Assembly (NCBI RefSeq): GCF_009711525.1
Contig: NZ_SMLV01000435.1
Span: 1-59,172, forward strand
Direction: 5' to 3'
Source: Fulvivirga lutimaris
Lineage (GTDB): Bacteria; Bacteroidota; Bacteroidia; Cytophagales; Cyclobacteriaceae
Length of the DNA: 59,172 nucleotides
In this document: positions 18,695-28,470 of the stretch, in pieces
Layout of the letters: the number at the start of each line of letters is the position of its first letter
How positions within the stretch are numbered: position 1 is the first letter of the stretch
Translations under genes and position numbers: made by a program
The notes under the pieces: model-generated
Seen by the model: the letters and a program-made list of their open reading frames with translations, nothing else
Databases searched by the model: none
What the model was told of the DNA's origin: nothing

Positions 18695-20081
18695 GATATT
18701 TTTCGGTTAAAAGGTTCTCAATAGGTTTTACTAGCTTGTCAATGTCTCCGGCACCAATTGTGGCTACCACTTCTAGCTGGTGCTCGCAAAGCATATCAAG
18801 GAGATCTTCCTTGCTGCACTTAGACTTCACCGTCTTTATGTCTTTAAAGACAATGTCAGAGGTCACACCTGGAATGGGCTCTTCTCTGGCAGGGTAGATA
18901 TCCAAAAGGATAATCTCATCGGCCAGGCTCAGACTTTCAGCAAATTCTGCAGCAAAATCTCGGGTACGACTGTAAAGGTGTGGCTGGAAAATAGCCGTCA
19001 CTTTTTTCTTTGGATACAATGCCTTCAATGATTTCAAGAAGGCCTCTATCTCTACCGGATGATGCGCATAGTCATCAACAAATACTACTTTTTCAGACCT
19101 GATAATAAACTCAAACCTGCGCTTTACACCTTTGTAGCTCTCGATACCAACGCGTATCTCCTCTACAGAAAGGCCAAGCTCTAATGCTACGGCTATTGCC
19201 ACAGTAGCATTTTCAACATTATGAAAACCGGGGACGCCTAGCTTAAGCTTATTAATGCTGTTGATCTCGTCAGTGTAGTTGAATTCAAAAAAACCATTTC
19301 CCATGGTTATATTGCTGGCAAAAAATTGCCCCCGGTTTAATCCATATGTATTCACAGATTTGGTAAAATCTGTGGACACTAAATCTTTTGTTATTTTCTC
19401 GTTGATAAAAAGCTTTCCTGTGCTCTTAATCTTATCTATAAATGCTTTGAAAGAATGCTCTAAATGTGCTTTATCTCCATAAATGTCAAGATGATCAGCA
19501 TCCGCAGAAGTGATTACTGCCAAATCTGGATTAAGCGTTAAGAAAGAGCGGTCGAACTCATCAGCCTCCACCACAGCCACAGTATTTGGTGTGAAAGCTT
19601 CATTGGCAATAAAGTTCGAGTTGTAATTAGTAGCAATACCTCCTAAAAATGCCGCAATATCACGACCTGCATGTTTCAGCAAGTGTGCTATCATGGAAGA
19701 GGTGGTAGTCTTACCGTGAGTACCAGCTACCGCTACTAATTTGAAATTATCTGAAATGACACCTAGCACCTCTGAGCGCTTCAGCATCTTATAGTTGTTT
19801 TCCTTAAAGAAATTGAGCTGCTTATGTCCTTGCGGAATAGCAGGAGTCATGATGACTAAAGTTTTGTCGCAATCAGTACTCACCTCATCACTTACCAGAC
19901 TTATATCATCTTCAAAGTGAATAGCAATACCTTCATTGATCAAAGTATCTGTCAAAACTGTAGGTGTGCGATCATAGCCTGAAACAGCAAAACCATTGAG
20001 GTTAAACCACCGCGCTAAGGCACTCATGCCTATCCCTCCGATGCCTAGAAAATGGACGTTATGGTAATGTTTCAAATTCAT
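18687..20081 (-). CDS. murC: UDP-N-acetylmuramate--L-alanine ligase MurC
   Basis: A cytosolic ATP-dependent ligase adding L-Ala to UDP-MurNAc, the first amino acid of the peptidoglycan stem. The 464-residue protein shows the Rossmann-like start NVHFLGIGGIGMSALARWF, the Mur ATP loop AGTHGKTTTSSMIAHLL near 115, the central motif VVEADEFDRSFL near 170 and the C-terminal DDYAHHPVEI near 320. Length and motifs are normal for MurC rather than Mpl. It overlaps murG by four bases (ATGA) and ftsQ by eight. There is no ddl gene after it, unlike in Enterobacteria. Confidence 0.97.
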   Translation of the reverse strand: MNLKHYHNVHFLGIGGIGMSALARWFNLNGFAVSGYDRTPTVLTDTLINEGIAIHFEDDISLVSDEVSTDCDKTLVIMTPAIPQGHKQLNFFKENNYKMLKRSEVLGVISDNFKLVAVAGTHGKTTTSSMIAHLLKHAGRDIAAFLGGIATNYNSNFIANEAFTPNTVAVVEADEFDRSFLTLNPDLAVITSADADHLDIYGDKAHLEHSFKAFIDKIKSTGKLFINEKITKDLVSTDFTKSVNTYGLNRGQFFASNITMGNGFFEFNYTDEINSINKLKLGVPGFHNVENATVAIAVALELGLSVEEIRVGIESYKGVKRRFEFIIRSEKVVFVDDYAHHPVEIEAFLKSLKALYPKKKVTAIFQPHLYSRTRDFAAEFAESLSLADEIILLDIYPAREEPIPGVTSDIVFKDIKTVKSKCSKEDLLDMLCEHQLEVVATIGAGDIDKLVKPIENLLTEKYHA

Positions 20082-21187
20082 TTGATCATTTCCATTAGTT
20101 GGTTCACAATTTCTACAGCGGCATTAGGCTTCGCCAGTGTTTTTATATTCTTAGATAGCACCTTCTGACGATCTTCATCCTTCAGGAGCTCTATTACTTC
20201 TGCAACCAGATTATCCTTGGCTCTGTTATCTGTCACCATTATGGCGGCATCAATAGCAGTCAATGCAGCAGCATTCTTGGTTTGATGATCTTCAGCCACA
20301 TTAGGTGAGGGCACCAGCACCACAGGCTTGCCTACAATGCATAATTCTGAAATAGACAATGCGCCTGCTCTGGAGATTACTACATCTGCAGCCGCATAAG
20401 CCAAATCCATTTCCTTTATGAACTGTACTATCCTAATATTGGTAAGGTCATAAACCTTGGCTCTTGTTTTAATGTCTTCGTAATAGAACCTTCCGGTCTG
20501 CCAGATCACCTGATAGCCATTCTTAACTACCTTATCCAGCTCACCAAGCACACTATTGTTAATTGTACGGGCACCAAGGCTTCCACCCAACACTAATATT
20601 GTTTTCTTCTTTGGATCTAGTTTGAAATGCTCAAGACCTTCACTTCTTTTAGCACTGATATCCAAAATATCCTTTCTTACCGGGTTGCCTGTCATGCTTA
20701 TGCTTGATGCAGGGAAGTATTTATCCATACCCTCATAAGCCACACATATGCGCTTGGCCTTTCTACCAAACTTCTTATTGGTCAAACCAGCATAACTGTT
20801 TTGTTCCTGAATTAATGAAGGTATATTTAGTGAGTTAGCCGCAAACATCATTGGTCCGCTTGCATAACCACCAAAGCCCAGCACTGCATCCGGCTTATAG
20901 GTTTTAACAATACGCTTAGCCACAAGGAAACTATAGATCACCTTAATAGGGAACAGCACATTGTCAAGCGTTATCCTACGTTGCAGTCCACTAATCCAAA
21001 GCCCTACAATCTTAAAGCCTGCTTCAGGCACCTTAGTCATTTCCATTTTGCCTTTGGCACCTACAAAAATGATTCGAGCATCCTCATACCGAGCCCTTAT
21101 CTCATTGGCCACTGCCAATGCAGGATAGATGTGGCCTCCGGTTCCTCCGCCACTAATTATGAATCGATATGGTTTTGTATTACTCAA
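20078..21187 (-). CDS. murG: N-acetylglucosaminyl transferase MurG
   Basis: Transfers GlcNAc from UDP-GlcNAc to lipid I to form lipid II on the cytosolic face of the membrane. A 369-residue GT-B enzyme with the N-terminal FIISGGGTGGHIYPALAVAN loop, GGYASGPMMFAAN and VLGGSLGARTINNSV, and the UDP-binding ADVVISRAGALSISEL near 270. The start is a TTG directly after the ftsW stop codon; no ATG or GTG occurs before the GGGTGGH loop, so TTG is the only ordinary choice. It overlaps murC by four bases. Confidence 0.96.
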   Translation of the reverse strand: MSNTKPYRFIISGGGTGGHIYPALAVANEIRARYEDARIIFVGAKGKMEMTKVPEAGFKIVGLWISGLQRRITLDNVLFPIKVIYSFLVAKRIVKTYKPDAVLGFGGYASGPMMFAANSLNIPSLIQEQNSYAGLTNKKFGRKAKRICVAYEGMDKYFPASSISMTGNPVRKDILDISAKRSEGLEHFKLDPKKKTILVLGGSLGARTINNSVLGELDKVVKNGYQVIWQTGRFYYEDIKTRAKVYDLTNIRIVQFIKEMDLAYAAADVVISRAGALSISELCIVGKPVVLVPSPNVAEDHQTKNAAALTAIDAAIMVTDNRAKDNLVAEVIELLKDEDRQKVLSKNIKTLAKPNAAVEIVNQLMEMIK

Positions 21188-22348
21188 TTAAGCTGCTTTA
21201 GCAATATTTCTTATTTCTCCTCCGGAATTCTCCCAGCTAGTGTCCGTTTCTCCACGGCTCACACTGATGATAATACCTATTGATAATCCTGTAAATAATA
21301 ATGATGTACCTCCCATACTGATCAATGGTAGGGGTAGTCCTGTTATTGGCCCAAGTCCAACAACTACGCCCATGTTTACCATGGCCTGCAGTACAATGGC
21401 AAAACTTAACCCGGCTGATAGCAAGCCACCAAAAGCTCGCTCACTATTAGTCACTGCCTTCATACCTCGTGATAATAAAATCAGATAAAGCAGGAGCACT
21501 ACTACACCACCGACCATTCCATACTCTTCAATAATGATGGCAAACACGAAATCTGAATATGGGTGCGGAAGGATGTTTCTTTGCTGGCTTTGTCCCGGAC
21601 CTTTACCAAACACACCACCGGTAGCCACAGCTATACGGGCATGTTTTGCCTGGAATGGTAGTTCATCACCATTAATAAAACTCTCGATCCTGCTCTTGGC
21701 TGTTTCACCTCTTACTCCAAAAGTAAGCGCGGTGCCTCCGGCCAATATTCCAACAAACACAAGCATAGCCAGGTATTTAATTGGCACTCTGCCGATAAAC
21801 ATAATCAGCATGCAGGTTAAGAATAGCAGTATCGCTGAAGATAAGTTGGTCAGTGCAATCAATCCACAGATAACTCCGCACCAGATTAGGATCGGAATCA
21901 ACGATTCTTTGAAATCAGCAATGTTTTGCTGACGTTTTGATAGCATACTTGCCAAGCTGGTGATCAGTGCTAAACTCGCCAGGTCTGACGGCTGGAACGA
22001 TGCATTAATTACTGGCAATTGTATCCAACGCGAAGCATCATTAAGACTCACACCATTTGTGAATGTGTATATGAGCAATGGTACGCTTAGCCATAAAGCA
22101 AAACGTGATAGTTTTGAATAATATCTATAGTCTACCTTATGGGCTACCCACATAGCCAAAACACCAAGCCCAACCAGCAAAGTGTGCTTGATTAAGTAAG
22201 ACTCAGGGTTGACCATTCTTTTGAATGCCAGAGTACCTGTTGCACTGTAAACCACTAATATGCTTATTAGCGAAAGTGCAAATATCACTGCCCAGATTAC
22301 TGGATCACCTTTTAAGTTTTCATCTACCCAAGCTTTTACTTTAATCAT
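21188..22348 (-). CDS. ftsW: Septal peptidoglycan glycosyltransferase FtsW
   Basis: A SEDS-family polytopic membrane protein that polymerises glycan strands from lipid II at the septum with FtsI. The 386-residue sequence has about ten membrane segments. Family features are the large extracytoplasmic loop containing AVATGGVFGKGPGQSQQRNI, DFVFAIIIEEYGMVGG and the C-terminal GLPLPLISMGGTSLLFTG. Location between murD and murG and pairing with ftsI in this cluster favour FtsW over RodA. The start overlaps the murD stop by four bases (ATGA). Confidence 0.95.
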   Translation of the reverse strand: MIKVKAWVDENLKGDPVIWAVIFALSLISILVVYSATGTLAFKRMVNPESYLIKHTLLVGLGVLAMWVAHKVDYRYYSKLSRFALWLSVPLLIYTFTNGVSLNDASRWIQLPVINASFQPSDLASLALITSLASMLSKRQQNIADFKESLIPILIWCGVICGLIALTNLSSAILLFLTCMLIMFIGRVPIKYLAMLVFVGILAGGTALTFGVRGETAKSRIESFINGDELPFQAKHARIAVATGGVFGKGPGQSQQRNILPHPYSDFVFAIIIEEYGMVGGVVVLLLYLILLSRGMKAVTNSERAFGGLLSAGLSFAIVLQAMVNMGVVVGLGPITGLPLPLISMGGTSLLFTGLSIGIIISVSRGETDTSWENSGGEIRNIAKAA

Positions 22349-23703
22349 TGTTCTAAAGCTTTAGATTCAAATTCATTTTTCAATTCAAGCACCGCTTGTC
22401 TAAACTGCTCACCACGATCTTCATAATTATTGAATAGATCGAAACTTGCACATGCCGGTGAAAGCAACACCACATCATGCATAGCAGCATAATTCAATGC
22501 CTCACGCACTGCAGTTTTCATGTTATCTGTTTCCAGCATATTGATAATCTGTCCATGAAAAGCATCTCTTAGTTTAGAATTATCCTTACCAAGACATACA
22601 AGCGCTTTTACTTTTTCATTGACAGACTCCATGATCAAATCATATTGATTGCCCTTGTCTATGCCTCCTGCTATCCAAACCAATGGATCTGAAAAGCTTT
22701 CCAATGCGTACTGCACAGCATCAACATTAGTGGCCTTTGAGTCATTAATAAATCTCACATCATTAATGGTAGCGATGTACTCCATACGATGTGGCGCATT
22801 CTTGAAAGTCTGAAGTGATGATTTGATACTTTCAACACTGATGCCAACCTCTAATGCAGCACTAACTGCTGCCATCATGTTAATTGCATTATGTCTGCCT
22901 AAAAGCACAGTGTCTTTCTGATCGATATGCACTTTATCAAAAAGATGCATCATCTGATCATCAAAATATGCAGCTGCAGATTCGTCCGTCAAAGAGATAG
23001 GTACGAAATTGGTATTGTATGCTCTTTCTTTGATCGCCTCTTTGATGAGCACATTATCCTGATAATAGATGAAGTAATCATCCTTACCCAAGTTTTGAGC
23101 TATTCTGAATTTCGAATCAACATAATTATTGATATCATAATCATACCTATCCATATGATCAGGAGTGATATTGAGCAAAATAGAAATATATGGACTCAAG
23201 AGATAGCAACCATCTAATTGGAAGCTGCTCATCTCTACTACGTAGTAATCAAATTCATCTTTAATTACTTGTTTAGCCAGACTTTGACCAACATTACCGG
23301 CTAAACCAACTTTAACTCCAGCCTCTTTGAGAAGATGATAAGTTAATAAAGTGGTAGTGGTCTTTCCATTGGTACCGGTGATAGCAATTAAACGCGCCTT
23401 TGTATAGCTAAAAGCGAACTCTATTTCATCAATAATTTTTACGCCCGCTGTTCTAAGCTCTTTTACAATTGGAGCCTTTTCAGGAATACCAGGACTTTTA
23501 ATAACGAGCTGTGATTCTAGTATTTTTGACTTAGAATGCTTCTCTTCTTCATAGGAAATACCTTCAGCTATAAGTTCCTGCTTATACTTATCAGCAATTT
23601 TTCCATTATCAGAAACGAACACGGCATAGCCCTTAGCTTTTGCTAATAAAGCCGCCCCTGTTCCGCTTTCGCCTGCTCCTAATATGGTAATTAAGTGTCC
23701 TAT
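22345..23703 (-). CDS. murD: UDP-N-acetylmuramoylalanine--D-glutamate ligase MurD, non-canonical start
   Basis: Adds D-Glu to UDP-MurNAc-L-Ala. The Mur ATP loop AITGTNGKTTTTLLTYHLL, the substrate-binding GNVGQSLAKQV and the C-terminal LLSPACASFDLFNNYEDRG are all present. A GTG at 23622 is the first ordinary start, but the sequence upstream stays in frame and encodes the conserved family opening ITILGAGESGTGAALLAKA back to just after the mraY stop. Within that stretch there is no ATG, GTG or TTG, only ATA (23703) and ATT (23691, 23685 being ATA). I extend the gene to 23703 (452 residues); with ATT at 23691 it would be 448. Both fit the family; a truncated start would remove the nucleotide-binding loop. 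Confidence 0.85.
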   Translation of the reverse strand: MGHLITILGAGESGTGAALLAKAKGYAVFVSDNGKIADKYKQELIAEGISYEEEKHSKSKILESQLVIKSPGIPEKAPIVKELRTAGVKIIDEIEFAFSYTKARLIAITGTNGKTTTTLLTYHLLKEAGVKVGLAGNVGQSLAKQVIKDEFDYYVVEMSSFQLDGCYLLSPYISILLNITPDHMDRYDYDINNYVDSKFRIAQNLGKDDYFIYYQDNVLIKEAIKERAYNTNFVPISLTDESAAAYFDDQMMHLFDKVHIDQKDTVLLGRHNAINMMAAVSAALEVGISVESIKSSLQTFKNAPHRMEYIATINDVRFINDSKATNVDAVQYALESFSDPLVWIAGGIDKGNQYDLIMESVNEKVKALVCLGKDNSKLRDAFHGQIINMLETDNMKTAVREALNYAAMHDVVLLSPACASFDLFNNYEDRGEQFRQAVLELKNEFESKALEQ

Positions 23704-23704
23704 T

Positions 23705-24913
23705 TTATCTAAGTTTTAATGTTGCCAAAGTCATAATCGCCAATAAGATGCCTACCATCCAGAATCTGGTGACAATCTTTGACTCGTGTATTTCCATTTT
23801 TTGATAGTGATGGTGCAAGGGTGACATTTTAAAAACCCTTCGTCCTTCACCGTATTTTCTTTTTGTGTACTTGAAGTAGCCTACCTGTATCATTACAGAA
23901 AGACTTTCTATCAAGAATATGCCACATAACAATGGCAGTAAAAGCTCTTTGCGTACAATTAAAGCAAGTACTGCTATGATGCCTCCAATTGTTAGACTAC
24001 CGGTATCACCCATAAAAATCTGAGCTGGATAAGCATTGTACCATAAAAATCCGATGCAGGCTCCTACAAAAGCCGCACAGAAGATTACCACCTCACTTAA
24101 ATTAGGGATGTGCAGAATATTCAGATATTCACTAAAATCGACACGGCCAGACAGGTAAGCCAAAATGGCTATGGTTAAACCAATAATGGCCGAAGTACCA
24201 GCTGCCAAACCATCGATTCCATCAGTGAGATTGGCACCATTAGATACAGCTGTTAATATAAATATGACTACAAATACATAAATGATCCATGTAGAGTCAT
24301 GTGTTAAGAAAGGTATTACCTTATCATAGTCCAGTTCGTTGTCTTTTAGAAAAGGAACAGTAGTTTTTGTAGATTTTACATCCTCATACTCTCTTACCAC
24401 TTCATTCTGGGCATTGATGGTCTCGTCTCCATATTCTCTAACCACTACATTCTGATTAAAGTAAAGTGTAAGACCAACAATGATTCCTATTGAAACCTGG
24501 CCAACAATTTTAAACTTGCCTGCAAGACCTTCCTTATTCTTTTTAAATACCTTGATATAGTCATCCATGAACCCGATTAAACCAAGTGCCAACGTGACAC
24601 CAACCAAAAGAATTACATATACATTTTCTAGACGAGCAAAGAGTAGAACTGGAATCAAGATGGCACTGATAATGATAAGTCCACCCATGGTTGGCGTTCC
24701 TTTCTTAGCCATTTGACCTTCTAGTCCTAAGTCACGAATGCTTTCTCCGACCTGCTTCTTCTGTAAGAAGTCAATAAGTCTTTTGCCGATCAGAATTGTA
24801 ATAACCAATGATAAAACAGCCGCCATACCAGCTCTGAACGAGATGTACTGAAACACACTCGCCCCTATCAGACTATATTGTTTTTCTAAATAATCGAATA
24901 GGTAGTATAGCAT
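23705..24913 (-). CDS. mraY: Phospho-MurNAc-pentapeptide transferase MraY
   Basis: Makes lipid I by moving phospho-MurNAc-pentapeptide to undecaprenyl phosphate in the inner membrane. The 402-residue protein has about ten membrane segments and the family motifs [12 protein letters not shown] near 72, [17 protein letters not shown] near 113, [15 protein letters not shown] near 222 and [17 protein letters not shown] near 363. It is about 40 residues longer than the E. coli enzyme because of an extra loop near 155-200 that contains [15 protein letters not shown] and then [10 protein letters not shown]. It follows murE by three bases and precedes murD directly. Confidence 0.97.
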
Positions 24914-24916
24914 AAA

Positions 24917-26380
24917 TTAATTCGCAAATAGGTTTAACATTCTTCCTAATACTTCTTTGTCATCAAAGGCATGTTTTACACCGTTGATTTCCTGATACTT
25001 CTCATGTCCTTTACCAGCCACAAGAATGATATCCTTTTCTTTTGCCAAAAGGCAGGCTGTCTTAATGGCCTCTTCGCGATCCATCAAAACCACAGTCTTT
25101 TTATAATCTGAGGGGCTTACACCCTGCTTCATATCATTTATGATTTGCTCAGGATCTTCATTTCTTGGATTATCCATTGTGAAGACCACCTTGTCGCTCA
25201 GCTTGCAAGCTATAGAAGCCATCAATGGTCTTTTTGCGGCATCTCTATTACCTCCACATCCAACAACAGTGATCACTTGCTCATTACCCGTTCTGAATTC
25301 AGCAATAGTTTCCAGAACATTTTTCAATGCATCGGGAGTATGTGCGTAGTCTACAATAGCTGTGATGTCAGAGTTGTTATCGACCTGCTCAAATCGACCT
25401 AAGGCTCCGTTTAATGATGAAAGTGCTGTTAGTACAGTATCAGAATCTTCACCAAGCAGCATGGCAGCTGCATAAACTGATAGAAGGTTGTAGGCATTAA
25501 AGTCTCCAATAAGCTTAAACCAAACATTCTTGTTATCAATCTCCAACTCCAAACCCTTAAGAGTATTTGAGACCAGCTTAGCTTTGAAGTCAGTCATACT
25601 TTTAAGCGAATAGGTCTTCTTCTCAGCCTTTGTATTTTGAAGCATAATCTGACCACGCTTGTCATCTTTATTAACCAAGGCAAAAGCATCACTGGTCAAT
25701 CCATCAAAAAGTTTCTTCTTCGCGGCTATATAAGCATCAAAAGTTTTATGATAGTCTAAATGATCATGAGAGATGTTAGAGAATATCGCTCCAGTAAAAG
25801 TTACCCCTGCAATTCTGTGCTGCTCAATGGCATGTGAGCTTACTTCCATAAAGCAATACTCACAACCCTTATCAACCATATTGGCCAAAAGCTCATTAAG
25901 TCTTAAAGCATCGGGCGTAGTATGCATTGAAGGCAAAACTTCGCCATCAATTCTATTATCAATAGTAGATAATAGCCCGGCAGCATAACCAAGTTTTTGA
26001 AACAGATTAAAAAGCAATGTGGCAACGGTGGTCTTACCGTTGGTTCCTGTAACACCTACAAGTTTTAGCTTGGCACTTGGGTTTCCATAAAAGTTAGAAG
26101 AAACAATACCCAATGCTTCCGCACTGTTTTTAACAGCTACATAAGTAACATCCTCATTGACTTGTTCAGGTAGGGTTTGGCAAACTATTGCTACAGCACC
26201 TGATTTAATAGCGCTAGCGATATATTCATGCCCATCAACCTGAGTGCCTTTAACCGCCACGAATAGCGATCCCTTTTTAACTTCTCTTGAATCAAAGCTA
26301 ATCTGAGTAATTTGGCGCGTCATATCACCGCTGGCGGATACCAGTGAAACCTTGTATAGTATATCTCTTAACTCCGCCAT
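24917..26380 (-). CDS. murE: UDP-MurNAc-L-Ala-D-Glu--2,6-diaminopimelate ligase MurE
   Basis: Adds the third stem residue to UDP-MurNAc-dipeptide. At 487 residues it has normal length. The ATP loop is GVTGTNGKTTVATLLFNLF near 110, followed by STIDNRIDG, VSSHAIEQHR and YHKTFDAYIAAKKKLF. The DNPRNEDP motif near 405 is the residue pattern associated with meso-diaminopimelate rather than lysine, so a DAP-type wall is expected. Its ATG overlaps the ftsI stop by one base (TGATG). murF, the next ligase of the pathway, is not in this window. Confidence 0.97.
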   Translation of the reverse strand: MAELRDILYKVSLVSASGDMTRQITQISFDSREVKKGSLFVAVKGTQVDGHEYIASAIKSGAVAIVCQTLPEQVNEDVTYVAVKNSAEALGIVSSNFYGNPSAKLKLVGVTGTNGKTTVATLLFNLFQKLGYAAGLLSTIDNRIDGEVLPSMHTTPDALRLNELLANMVDKGCEYCFMEVSSHAIEQHRIAGVTFTGAIFSNISHDHLDYHKTFDAYIAAKKKLFDGLTSDAFALVNKDDKRGQIMLQNTKAEKKTYSLKSMTDFKAKLVSNTLKGLELEIDNKNVWFKLIGDFNAYNLLSVYAAAMLLGEDSDTVLTALSSLNGALGRFEQVDNNSDITAIVDYAHTPDALKNVLETIAEFRTGNEQVITVVGCGGNRDAAKRPLMASIACKLSDKVVFTMDNPRNEDPEQIINDMKQGVSPSDYKKTVVLMDREEAIKTACLLAKEKDIILVAGKGHEKYQEINGVKHAFDDKEVLGRMLNLFAN

Positions 26381-28470
26381 CAGCTCAACTTGATTGATAT
26401 TTGATTACCATTAGAAACCTTTGTTCCTGGAATTTTAGATTGCTCAACTACACGACCTTTACCAGAAACATTGACTTTTAAACCTGTGCTCTCTAATAAA
26501 TAAAGCGCATCACGCAGGGTCATACCCTTTACATTCGGGACAAGGTTTTCAATTACTTTATTTTCTTTCCACTTTACAGAATTGCCATAGCGCTCTGTAA
26601 CAACCCATTCTTTTTCTGTCGCACTGTGATTTGACACACCTAATTCATTGCATAAGAATTGCAGTTCGTCCTGCTTTCCTGATTGGATAAGGGGAAAAAT
26701 TCCAGCCTCAGCAGTAAACTCTTTTGGAAGTGGGTCATGCATATCTATATCTCTTGAATAGATATTATCAGCAATCTCTTTGAACACTGGAGCAGCCACA
26801 TTACTACCATATTGGCGCCATCCTTTAGGGTTTTTGATCAATACAATAGCGCTGTATTTTGGTTGCTCTGCTGGGAAATAGCCCGCAAATGAAGTGATAT
26901 ACTTTTTAGTATACCTTCCCTTTTCTAATATCTGAGCGGTACCGGTCTTACCCGCTATTTTGTAGTGGCTATTCTTGATGTTAGCTGCCGTACCACGTTC
27001 AACAACACCTTCAAGCATAATCCTCAGCTTAATCAAGGTTTCATCAGAGCAAATTTTATCATTAAGCACAGTGGGTTTGATATTCTCAACTACCTTGTCG
27101 GCCCTTCTTATTTTTTTAACAAATACTGGCCTGATCATTTTGCCATTATTAGCCACAGCATTATATAAAGCCAATGTCTGTAGAGGTGTTAACTCAAGAC
27201 CATAACCATAAGCCATCCATGGCAAAGTAATACCACTCCAGTCTTTATCCGTTGGTCGTTTTATGATAGGAATACCCTCTCCCTTAATCTGAACACCAAG
27301 TGGCTGAGATAAACCTAGCTTATCAATCTGCTCTACAAATTTTGATGGCTGCTTCCCAAAATATTTATCTACCAATTTGGCCATGGCCACATTAGAAGAT
27401 ACTTCAAAAGCCTCCTTTACAGTGATAGTTCCATAACCACCTTCCTCATGATCACGAACTATACTTTTGTAGAATTTCTGAACACCGTTTCCAGTGTTGA
27501 TGGTATCGCTTAGTTTAATGCCTGTATTTTCTAAAAGCGCTATCATAGTAGCCAACTTAAAAGTTGAGCCTGGCTCTCTTAATCCCCCAACTGCATAGTT
27601 ATAGCGCTCATAGTAATTGCCTTTGCTGTTCCTGCTTAGATTTGAAATGGCCTTTATTTCACCAGTAGCTACCTCCATAACTGCTACCACACCATAATCA
27701 GCTTCATGATATTCTAATGCTCTTAATAATGCAGTTTCGCTTACATCCTGAAGGTTGATATCTATTGTAGTTTCAATATCAAGACCCTGCTCCGTTTTAA
27801 CCTCAGTACCATCAAAAACAGGCTTCCAGCTACCTCCGGCTATTCTTTGGTAAAGCGCTTCACCATCCTGACCGGCTAATTCATCATTAAAACTATATTC
27901 AAGACCTGCCCCACGCTCGTTTTCATTGATAAATCCGATGGTTCTTAAGCTCAGGTTGGAGAATGGTCTGAATCTTTTATCCACTTTCTCGAAAATGATT
28001 CCACCTCTTAACCTTCCTGCCCTGAAAATTGGCCAGTCCTCTAAATTCTTTTTATCCTGATACCCGATAGTTGTTGAACTCAAAGGTGTGTATTGGCGAT
28101 TGGCCTCACGTGCATTTCTTAGCATCCTTTTGTAAGCTTCGGCACTTTGATCTTTAAAAAACCTTGAAAGTCTGTAGGCTAGAGAGTCTATACCACTATT
28201 AAAAAGCTCATCAGAAGCAATGGTTGCATCAAATGCTACTTTATAAAAAGGCAGTGATGTAGCCAATAGGCTGCCGTTATCGCTGTAGATATTACCACGC
28301 GTAGCTTTGACAGGTCTGTACTGAAAACTCATCTGATCAGACACCTCTTTCCACTTCTCCCCCTCAAAAAACTGAATGCGGCCCACTTTTATGGCAACCG
28401 CAGCAGCAAAGACGAAGACAAGCAAAAATGCTATCCGTACCCTGAGTAATATGGACTTCTTAATGTTCAC
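26380..28470 (-). CDS. ftsI: Septal penicillin-binding protein FtsI (PBP3) with PASTA domain
   Basis: The transpeptidase that cross-links septal peptidoglycan, working with FtsW. The 696-residue protein starts at a GTG (28470) that overlaps ftsL by 11 bases. It has a membrane helix (IAFLLVFVFAAAVAIKVG), a pedestal domain with KATRGNIYSDNGSLLATS, and the catalytic motifs GSTFKLATM (SxxK, Ser near 303), VSSNVAMAK (SxN) and AGKTGTAQI (KTG). The last 65 residues form a PASTA domain (VPNVKGMTLRDALYLLES). The PASTA tail is common in Bacteroidota FtsI and absent from E. coli FtsI. Confidence 0.96.
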   Translation of the reverse strand: MNIKKSILLRVRIAFLLVFVFAAAVAIKVGRIQFFEGEKWKEVSDQMSFQYRPVKATRGNIYSDNGSLLATSLPFYKVAFDATIASDELFNSGIDSLAYRLSRFFKDQSAEAYKRMLRNAREANRQYTPLSSTTIGYQDKKNLEDWPIFRAGRLRGGIIFEKVDKRFRPFSNLSLRTIGFINENERGAGLEYSFNDELAGQDGEALYQRIAGGSWKPVFDGTEVKTEQGLDIETTIDINLQDVSETALLRALEYHEADYGVVAVMEVATGEIKAISNLSRNSKGNYYERYNYAVGGLREPGSTFKLATMIALLENTGIKLSDTINTGNGVQKFYKSIVRDHEEGGYGTITVKEAFEVSSNVAMAKLVDKYFGKQPSKFVEQIDKLGLSQPLGVQIKGEGIPIIKRPTDKDWSGITLPWMAYGYGLELTPLQTLALYNAVANNGKMIRPVFVKKIRRADKVVENIKPTVLNDKICSDETLIKLRIMLEGVVERGTAANIKNSHYKIAGKTGTAQILEKGRYTKKYITSFAGYFPAEQPKYSAIVLIKNPKGWRQYGSNVAAPVFKEIADNIYSRDIDMHDPLPKEFTAEAGIFPLIQSGKQDELQFLCNELGVSNHSATEKEWVVTERYGNSVKWKENKVIENLVPNVKGMTLRDALYLLESTGLKVNVSGKGRVVEQSKIPGTKVSNGNQISIKLS

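Follow-up and report, generated by a model that had tools for sequence, protein, structure and literature searches.

The true start codon of murD in Fulvivirga lutimaris is most likely a rare AUA. Comparison of sequences suggests that murD in the window, which is the whole 59,172-nucleotide stretch of contig NZ_SMLV01000435.1 analyzed here, is probably translated, weakly, from the AUA at position 23703 by the ordinary initiator tRNA. We infer initiation at the AUA codon, a MurD yield below that of AUG and possibly sensitivity to IF3. The aligned codon is ATA or ATC in nine Fulvivirga species, referred to below as the AUH species.

The start region of murD and its protein

On the minus strand, the stop codon TAA of mraY (23707-23705) is followed by murD in a different frame. 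Upstream, the murD frame is closed by an in-frame TAA at 23718-23716, from which it reads AAC TTA GAT AAA, ATA (23703), GGA CAC TTA, ATT (23691), ACC, ATA (23685), TTA GGA GCA GGC and GAA. ATG, GTG and TTG are absent from this frame between the TAA and GTG 23622. This GTG is the first canonical in-frame codon, codon 28 when ATA 23703 is counted as codon 1, and the conserved N-terminus of MurD is encoded ahead of it. When the frame was read from the upstream stop, the preliminary description was confirmed in that murD has no canonical start in its conserved N-terminus, and its coordinates were right. The frame had also been said to begin directly behind the mraY stop; it is real, but it opens four codons before ATA 23703, within the end of mraY. 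The features of this region are as follows.

23701..23703, minus strand: ATA, the proposed murD start codon (aligned codon ATA/ATC in nine of the 16 Fulvivirga species and ATG in the closest sister genera; A at -3)
22345..23703, minus strand: murD, 452 codons plus stop, read from ATA (TIGR01087, Mur_ligase_M, Mur_ligase_C and MurD_N; alignment to solved MurD chains)
23623..23703, minus strand: 27 codons before the first canonical start codon, under purifying selection as protein (pN/pS 0.043 for codons 8-27; shifted frames 2.4-2.8)
23620..23622, minus strand: GTG, the first canonical in-frame codon and an unlikely start (a start here removes the MurD_N-matched residues)
23716..23718, minus strand: in-frame stop closing the murD frame upstream (read from the sequence)
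23705..24913, minus strand: mraY, whose stop TAA lies 1 nt before the ATA (read from the sequence)
23689..23691, minus strand: ATT, codon 5, a rejected start candidate (ATT, ATC, GTT, GTA, TTA or CTA in the clade)
23683..23685, minus strand: ATA, codon 7, an unlikely start candidate (ATA in 16 of 16 Fulvivirga species, including the seven with ATG starts)

The frame read from the ATA is a normal MurD. It matched NCBIfam TIGR01087 with 403.6 bits (cut-off, 211.95) over profile positions 2-439 of 441, starting at residue 5. In the same frame, Pfam MurD_N (PF21377) matched residues 5-74 with 32.5 bits (cut-off, 24), and the Mur_ligase_M and Mur_ligase_C domains were also matched. Moreover, solved MurD chains, from their residues 10-25, align from residues 3-7 of the window MurD. 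Given that the profile matches begin at residue 5, a start at GTG 23622 would remove the glycine loop. The earlier claim that such a start loses the N-terminal loop is thus borne out, as the MurD_N match would be cut.

The preliminary description had left the start among ATA 23703, ATT 23691 and ATA 23685. ATA 23703 is the best of the three by far, and the other two are disfavored by the codons of relatives or by a lost strand. ATT 23691 (codon 5) was rejected because relatives carry GTT, GTA, TTA or CTA there. ATA 23685 (codon 7) is unlikely, as a start there would delete the first strand and leave Met-Leu before Gly-Ala-Gly. Codon 7 is also ATA in the species with ATG starts and is therefore an ordinary internal Ile codon of the ILGAG motif.

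The genome of the window holds no second intact murD, as a DNA search gave a single match. At the protein level, the other murD matches in this genome reached at most 62.5 bits, the best of which was murC of the window. Finally, a search of mraY-murD against a plasmid collection gave no match.

Conservation and selection across Fulvivirga and its relatives

The murD sample comprised 14 other Fulvivirga genomes and named records (Fulvivirga sp. M361, F. kasyanovii, F. marina, F. aurantia, UBA1842 and an uncultured Fulvivirga, L068). It contained 16 species once duplicates (L002, L032, L033, L034, L035, and L064) were left out. Nine of the 16 species have no canonical start from the upstream stop to codon 7. 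Codon 1 is ATA in three of them (the window's genome G000, G010, and G011) and ATC in six (L068, G005, G003, G013, G012, and G009). The remaining seven species have ATG one codon upstream of codon 1, followed by GTG or GTA, and the nearest sister genera (L036, L017, L018, and others) have ATG exactly at codon 1. A murD locus without canonical start was found in none of 74 other loci (54, plus 20 from the family and order), which were mutually distinct (<95% identical) and nearly all Bacteroidota by title, with one Ignavibacteria and one Clostridium. That a canonical start is missing in nine of the 16 Fulvivirga species and in none of the 74 other loci is, as far as these sequences indicate, more than chance.

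In a tree of six neighboring proteins, rooted with G029 and G031, the nine AUH species form one clade and the seven ATG species another, each split with a local support of 0.96. ATA or ATC thus occurs in nine of nine species of the clade. These species are related by descent, so the conservation does not represent nine independent events. The tree requires about two changes of the third base (C to A, A to C) and none to G. The ancestor of this clade would have had AUC or AUA where the sister genera have AUG, and the weak start would have been kept since. No ATG, GTG or TTG that would yield the full-length protein is present in the murD of this clade; a TTG at codon 8 occurs in three of the nine species (G010, G013, and G009) and is absent in the window. 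A truncated start at this TTG is conceivable in those three species, though not in the window.

The codons ahead of GTG 23622 vary as coding sequence. Among the nine AUH species, pS is 0.69, pN is 0.030 and pN/pS is 0.043 for codons 8-27; in frames shifted by one or two bases, pN/pS of the same codons is 2.8 and 2.4. Codons 29-60 are intermediate (0.34), and constraint extends, more loosely, to codons 2-7 (0.64), next to the non-canonical codon. Codon 1 is always AT followed by A or C, while the encoded amino acid varies at codons 2-5. Among these species, synonymous sites have come close to saturation (pS of 0.69-0.82). As judged from this comparison, the murD N-terminus ahead of the GTG is translated.

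Of the 13 division and wall cluster genes, murD is the one without a canonical start; the exception is murG of G012 (L103) and G013 (L104), in which ATA stands at codon 1 and no canonical codon follows up to codon 20. Codon 1 of murG is TTG, GTG or ATG in the other species. Weak starts recur in this cluster (20078-28470 in the window), where ftsI starts with GTG and murG with TTG; murC starts with TTG or GTG in most relatives. One murC row, that of L001, matched murD itself at 25% and was ignored.

Predicted genes were also scanned for coding sequence that extends 5' of the first canonical start. In the window, one of 52 predicted genes was flagged, which was murD. In G011, three of 1,173 were flagged (murD, prfB, and dnaX), from 1.6 Mb or 39% of the genome, including a masked stretch of 5,000 bases. 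The flagged part of prfB (L118:8203-9246) is preceded by CTTTGA. The two halves of dnaX (L114:15617-16872) match one gamma/tau model in different frames, with an A-rich run between them. Both are probable programmed frameshift genes, and the scan thus detects real recoding. Where a canonical codon is nearby, however, the scan is blind: it flagged five of eight AUH murD loci, missing those of G009, G010, and G013, as well as the two murG ATA cases. Within these limits, the scan of the window and of 39% of G011 does not support widespread AUH starts.

The leader, the initiation machinery and rival readings

The sequence 5' of codon 1 is of unrelated kinds among the nine AUH species, and the conserved frame still begins at AUH. 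A distance of 1 nt separates the mraY stop from codon 1 in G000 and G010. In G005 (L009), an ORF for a four-helix bundle (TIGR02436, PF05635) stands between mraY and murD, and its stop lies 1 nt before the ATC. A small ORF ends 11 nt before codon 1 in G003, and in G013, G012, and G009 a small ORF ends 16 nt inside murD, overlapping codon 1 in another frame, where it could itself constrain these bases. G011 and L068 carry two different short-repeat tracts upstream of murD. The mraY stop of G011 lies 62 nt upstream with no other ORF of at least 18 codons ending nearby, and the nearest ORF found in L068 ends 23 nt upstream. The small ORF between mraY and murD is exactly 47 amino acid residues long in seven of seven species of the ATG clade, where its stop overlaps the murD ATG, and 51-59 residues long in four AUH species; it is absent in the window (loci L005-L008, L014-L016, and L010-L013). 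Those of the small ORFs that were compared with Pfam and NCBIfam had no match.

A start driven by a Shine-Dalgarno sequence was rejected. The longest match to AAGGAGGTGATC at -20 to -5 was 4 nt (G013) and at most 3 nt in the other eight species. Adenine at -3, a positive signal in Flavobacterium johnsoniae (PMC6847099), was found at nine of nine AUH murD sites vs. 73 of the 155 other cluster starts, the latter summed over 11 genes with rsmH and the rows not aligned from residue 1 excluded. In G012, G013, and G009, this A may also be inherited. The mean folding energy from -30 to +30 was -3.0 kcal/mol for the nine AUH sites vs. -5.2 kcal/mol for seven ATG sites. An unstructured leader with A at -3, which is a Kozak-like signal known in the phylum, probably aids initiation without Shine-Dalgarno pairing.

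Thirteen of 15 Fulvivirga genomes have an ordinary initiator tRNA. A DNA search found it in 14, complete with anticodon CAT in 13; the match in G003 was partial and G012 gave none. A tRNA pattern in which the first base of the anticodon was left free had matches in nine of the 15 genomes. ARAGORN predicted no tRNA in the two odd ones among these matches, L134 (G007) and L135 (G009), and an initiator tRNA with an altered anticodon was rejected. The ordinary fMet-tRNA (anticodon CAU) would read AUA, or AUC in the relatives, with a third-base mismatch.

IF3 was found in all 15 genomes. In all of these sequences, the ATG clade included, a Gly faces Arg99 of the 8jsg chain, which we take to be IF3 of E. 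coli, at a position presumably bearing on IF3 fidelity. As this Gly is also found in the ATG clade, it does not explain the difference between the clades, and an IF3 of relaxed fidelity was rejected. Moreover, the start of infC itself is ATT in each of the 15 Fulvivirga genomes (L077-L091), with GGAGGT a few bases before. The only canonical codons nearby are a GTG at codon 14-15 in four genomes and a TTG at -19 in one. AUH initiation is thus very probably used elsewhere in these cells, as the infC sequences suggest, in that case with a Shine-Dalgarno sequence. A similar AGGAGG with ATT or ATC is seen at infC in several other genera of the order. Ribosomes of Bacteroidia were reported not to recognize Shine-Dalgarno sequences (PMC9976891).

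Several other readings of the murD start were weighed. The preliminary description had named a base error as the plain alternative; at 23703, the true codon would then be ATG. The genome of the window is indeed a draft of 436 contigs (98% complete). However, ATA or ATC stands at the same codon in eight other Fulvivirga species, one of which, G011 with ATA, is a single-contig genome, and a base or assembly error is rejected as hardly credible. It is also extremely unlikely that MurD begins at a downstream canonical codon, such as GTG 23622, with a dispensable N-terminus. Although several species have GTG at codon 28, this reading would give up the glycine loop and is opposed by the strong protein-level constraint on codons 8-27; moreover, no canonical codon occurs before codon 62 in G012 or before codon 44 in G005. 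Recoding of an upstream ORF into murD is very unlikely as well. The upstream small ORF is in a frame one base off in 11 species, and G009 has a T-TTA-AAA-like stretch near its end, but G011 has no upstream ORF near murD and the frames differ between species, with the small ORF in one and both mraY and the four-helix ORF in another. In addition, no ATG in any frame was found from -28 to +60 in the nine AUH species, which speaks against a frameshift that begins at a canonical start close by.

Initiation at AUA 23703 is thus the reading retained, and two further proposals concern how and why the codon is used. Ribosomes that finish an upstream ORF might restart at the nearby AUH, which we regard as possible but rather unlikely. 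An ORF stop lies within -11 to +16 nt of codon 1 in seven of the nine AUH species, belonging to mraY (G000 and G010), the four-helix ORF (G005) or the small ORF (G003, G013, G012, and G009). However, the position and frame of this stop vary among species, and G011 and L068 have none so close. Re-initiation after mraY, as suggested earlier, fits the window and one sister species but is not general, since the ORF differs or is absent in the others; it may add to initiation in the seven species. The other proposal is that AUH holds MurD low, or ties it to the IF3 level as in infC, with AUG selected against, to which we give somewhat less than an even chance. In its favor, nine species have retained AUH, in which ATA and ATC replaced each other and ATG was never acquired despite the near-saturated synonymous sites, weak starts recur in the cluster (ftsI, murG, and murC, and the murG ATA of G012 and G013), and precedents exist in ccpN, cvfC1 and infC of S. 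aureus and in sigR of Streptomyces (PMC13009471; PMC5472188). Against it, about two third-base changes are few, such that drift with tolerance of AUH is possible, and ATG in seven sister species means that the genus can do without a low-yield start. By analogy with these systems, throttling of MurD and its control by IF3 are plausible. That MurD is under start discrimination by IF3, such that its synthesis would follow the IF3 level or ribosome state and link wall precursors to initiation without a Shine-Dalgarno sequence, is more doubtful and is offered as a speculation. If true, the AUA of murG in two of these species would place a second gene under this control.

Comparison with known non-canonical starts

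Documented cases of chromosomal genes with natural AUA or AUC starts are rare. A search of the open-licence literature found no report on start codons of Fulvivirga and, among the papers listed, none on AUH starts of murD or in Bacteroidota. Gene callers limited to ATG, GTG and TTG would shorten this essential MurD. Bacteroidota make hardly any use of Shine-Dalgarno pairing, and the murD start also offers a test of how their ribosomes choose starts.

In E. coli, the AUU start of infC permits feedback by IF3 and that of pcnB limits yield (PMC1780047). Similar to these two genes, Fulvivirga murD is an essential or important chromosomal gene that would start at AUH. Different from them, it encodes a peptidoglycan enzyme and its codon is AUA or AUC. 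Within Fulvivirga, infC has a perfect GGAGGT before its AUU, whereas murD is without such a sequence.

In S. aureus, ccpN (AUA), cvfC1 (AUU), infC (AUA), and citZ (AUA) were described as conserved starts that lower initiation, and reporters with a non-canonical start yielded about 10% of AUG in poor medium (PMC13009471). The AUA and AUU sites described there have extended Shine-Dalgarno sequences, and Fulvivirga murD has none. In Streptomyces, sigR starts with GTC in 32 of 34 genomes and with GTT in the other two, and is repressed by IF3 (PMC5472188). Similar to sigR, the third base of the murD start varies without becoming G. Unlike murD, sigR is a regulatory gene with a strong ribosome-binding site and GUC or GUU rather than AUA or AUC. 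The strong Shine-Dalgarno sequence of the assisted non-canonical starts of ccpN/cvfC1 and sigR is not found at Fulvivirga murD. Thus, conserved AUU, AUA and GUC starts are already known, and the cases from S. aureus and Streptomyces carry strong Shine-Dalgarno sequences. What is new in Fulvivirga murD is that the gene encodes an essential peptidoglycan enzyme, that AUC occurs besides AUA, and that the start is conserved across a clade of nine species with the Shine-Dalgarno sequence absent.
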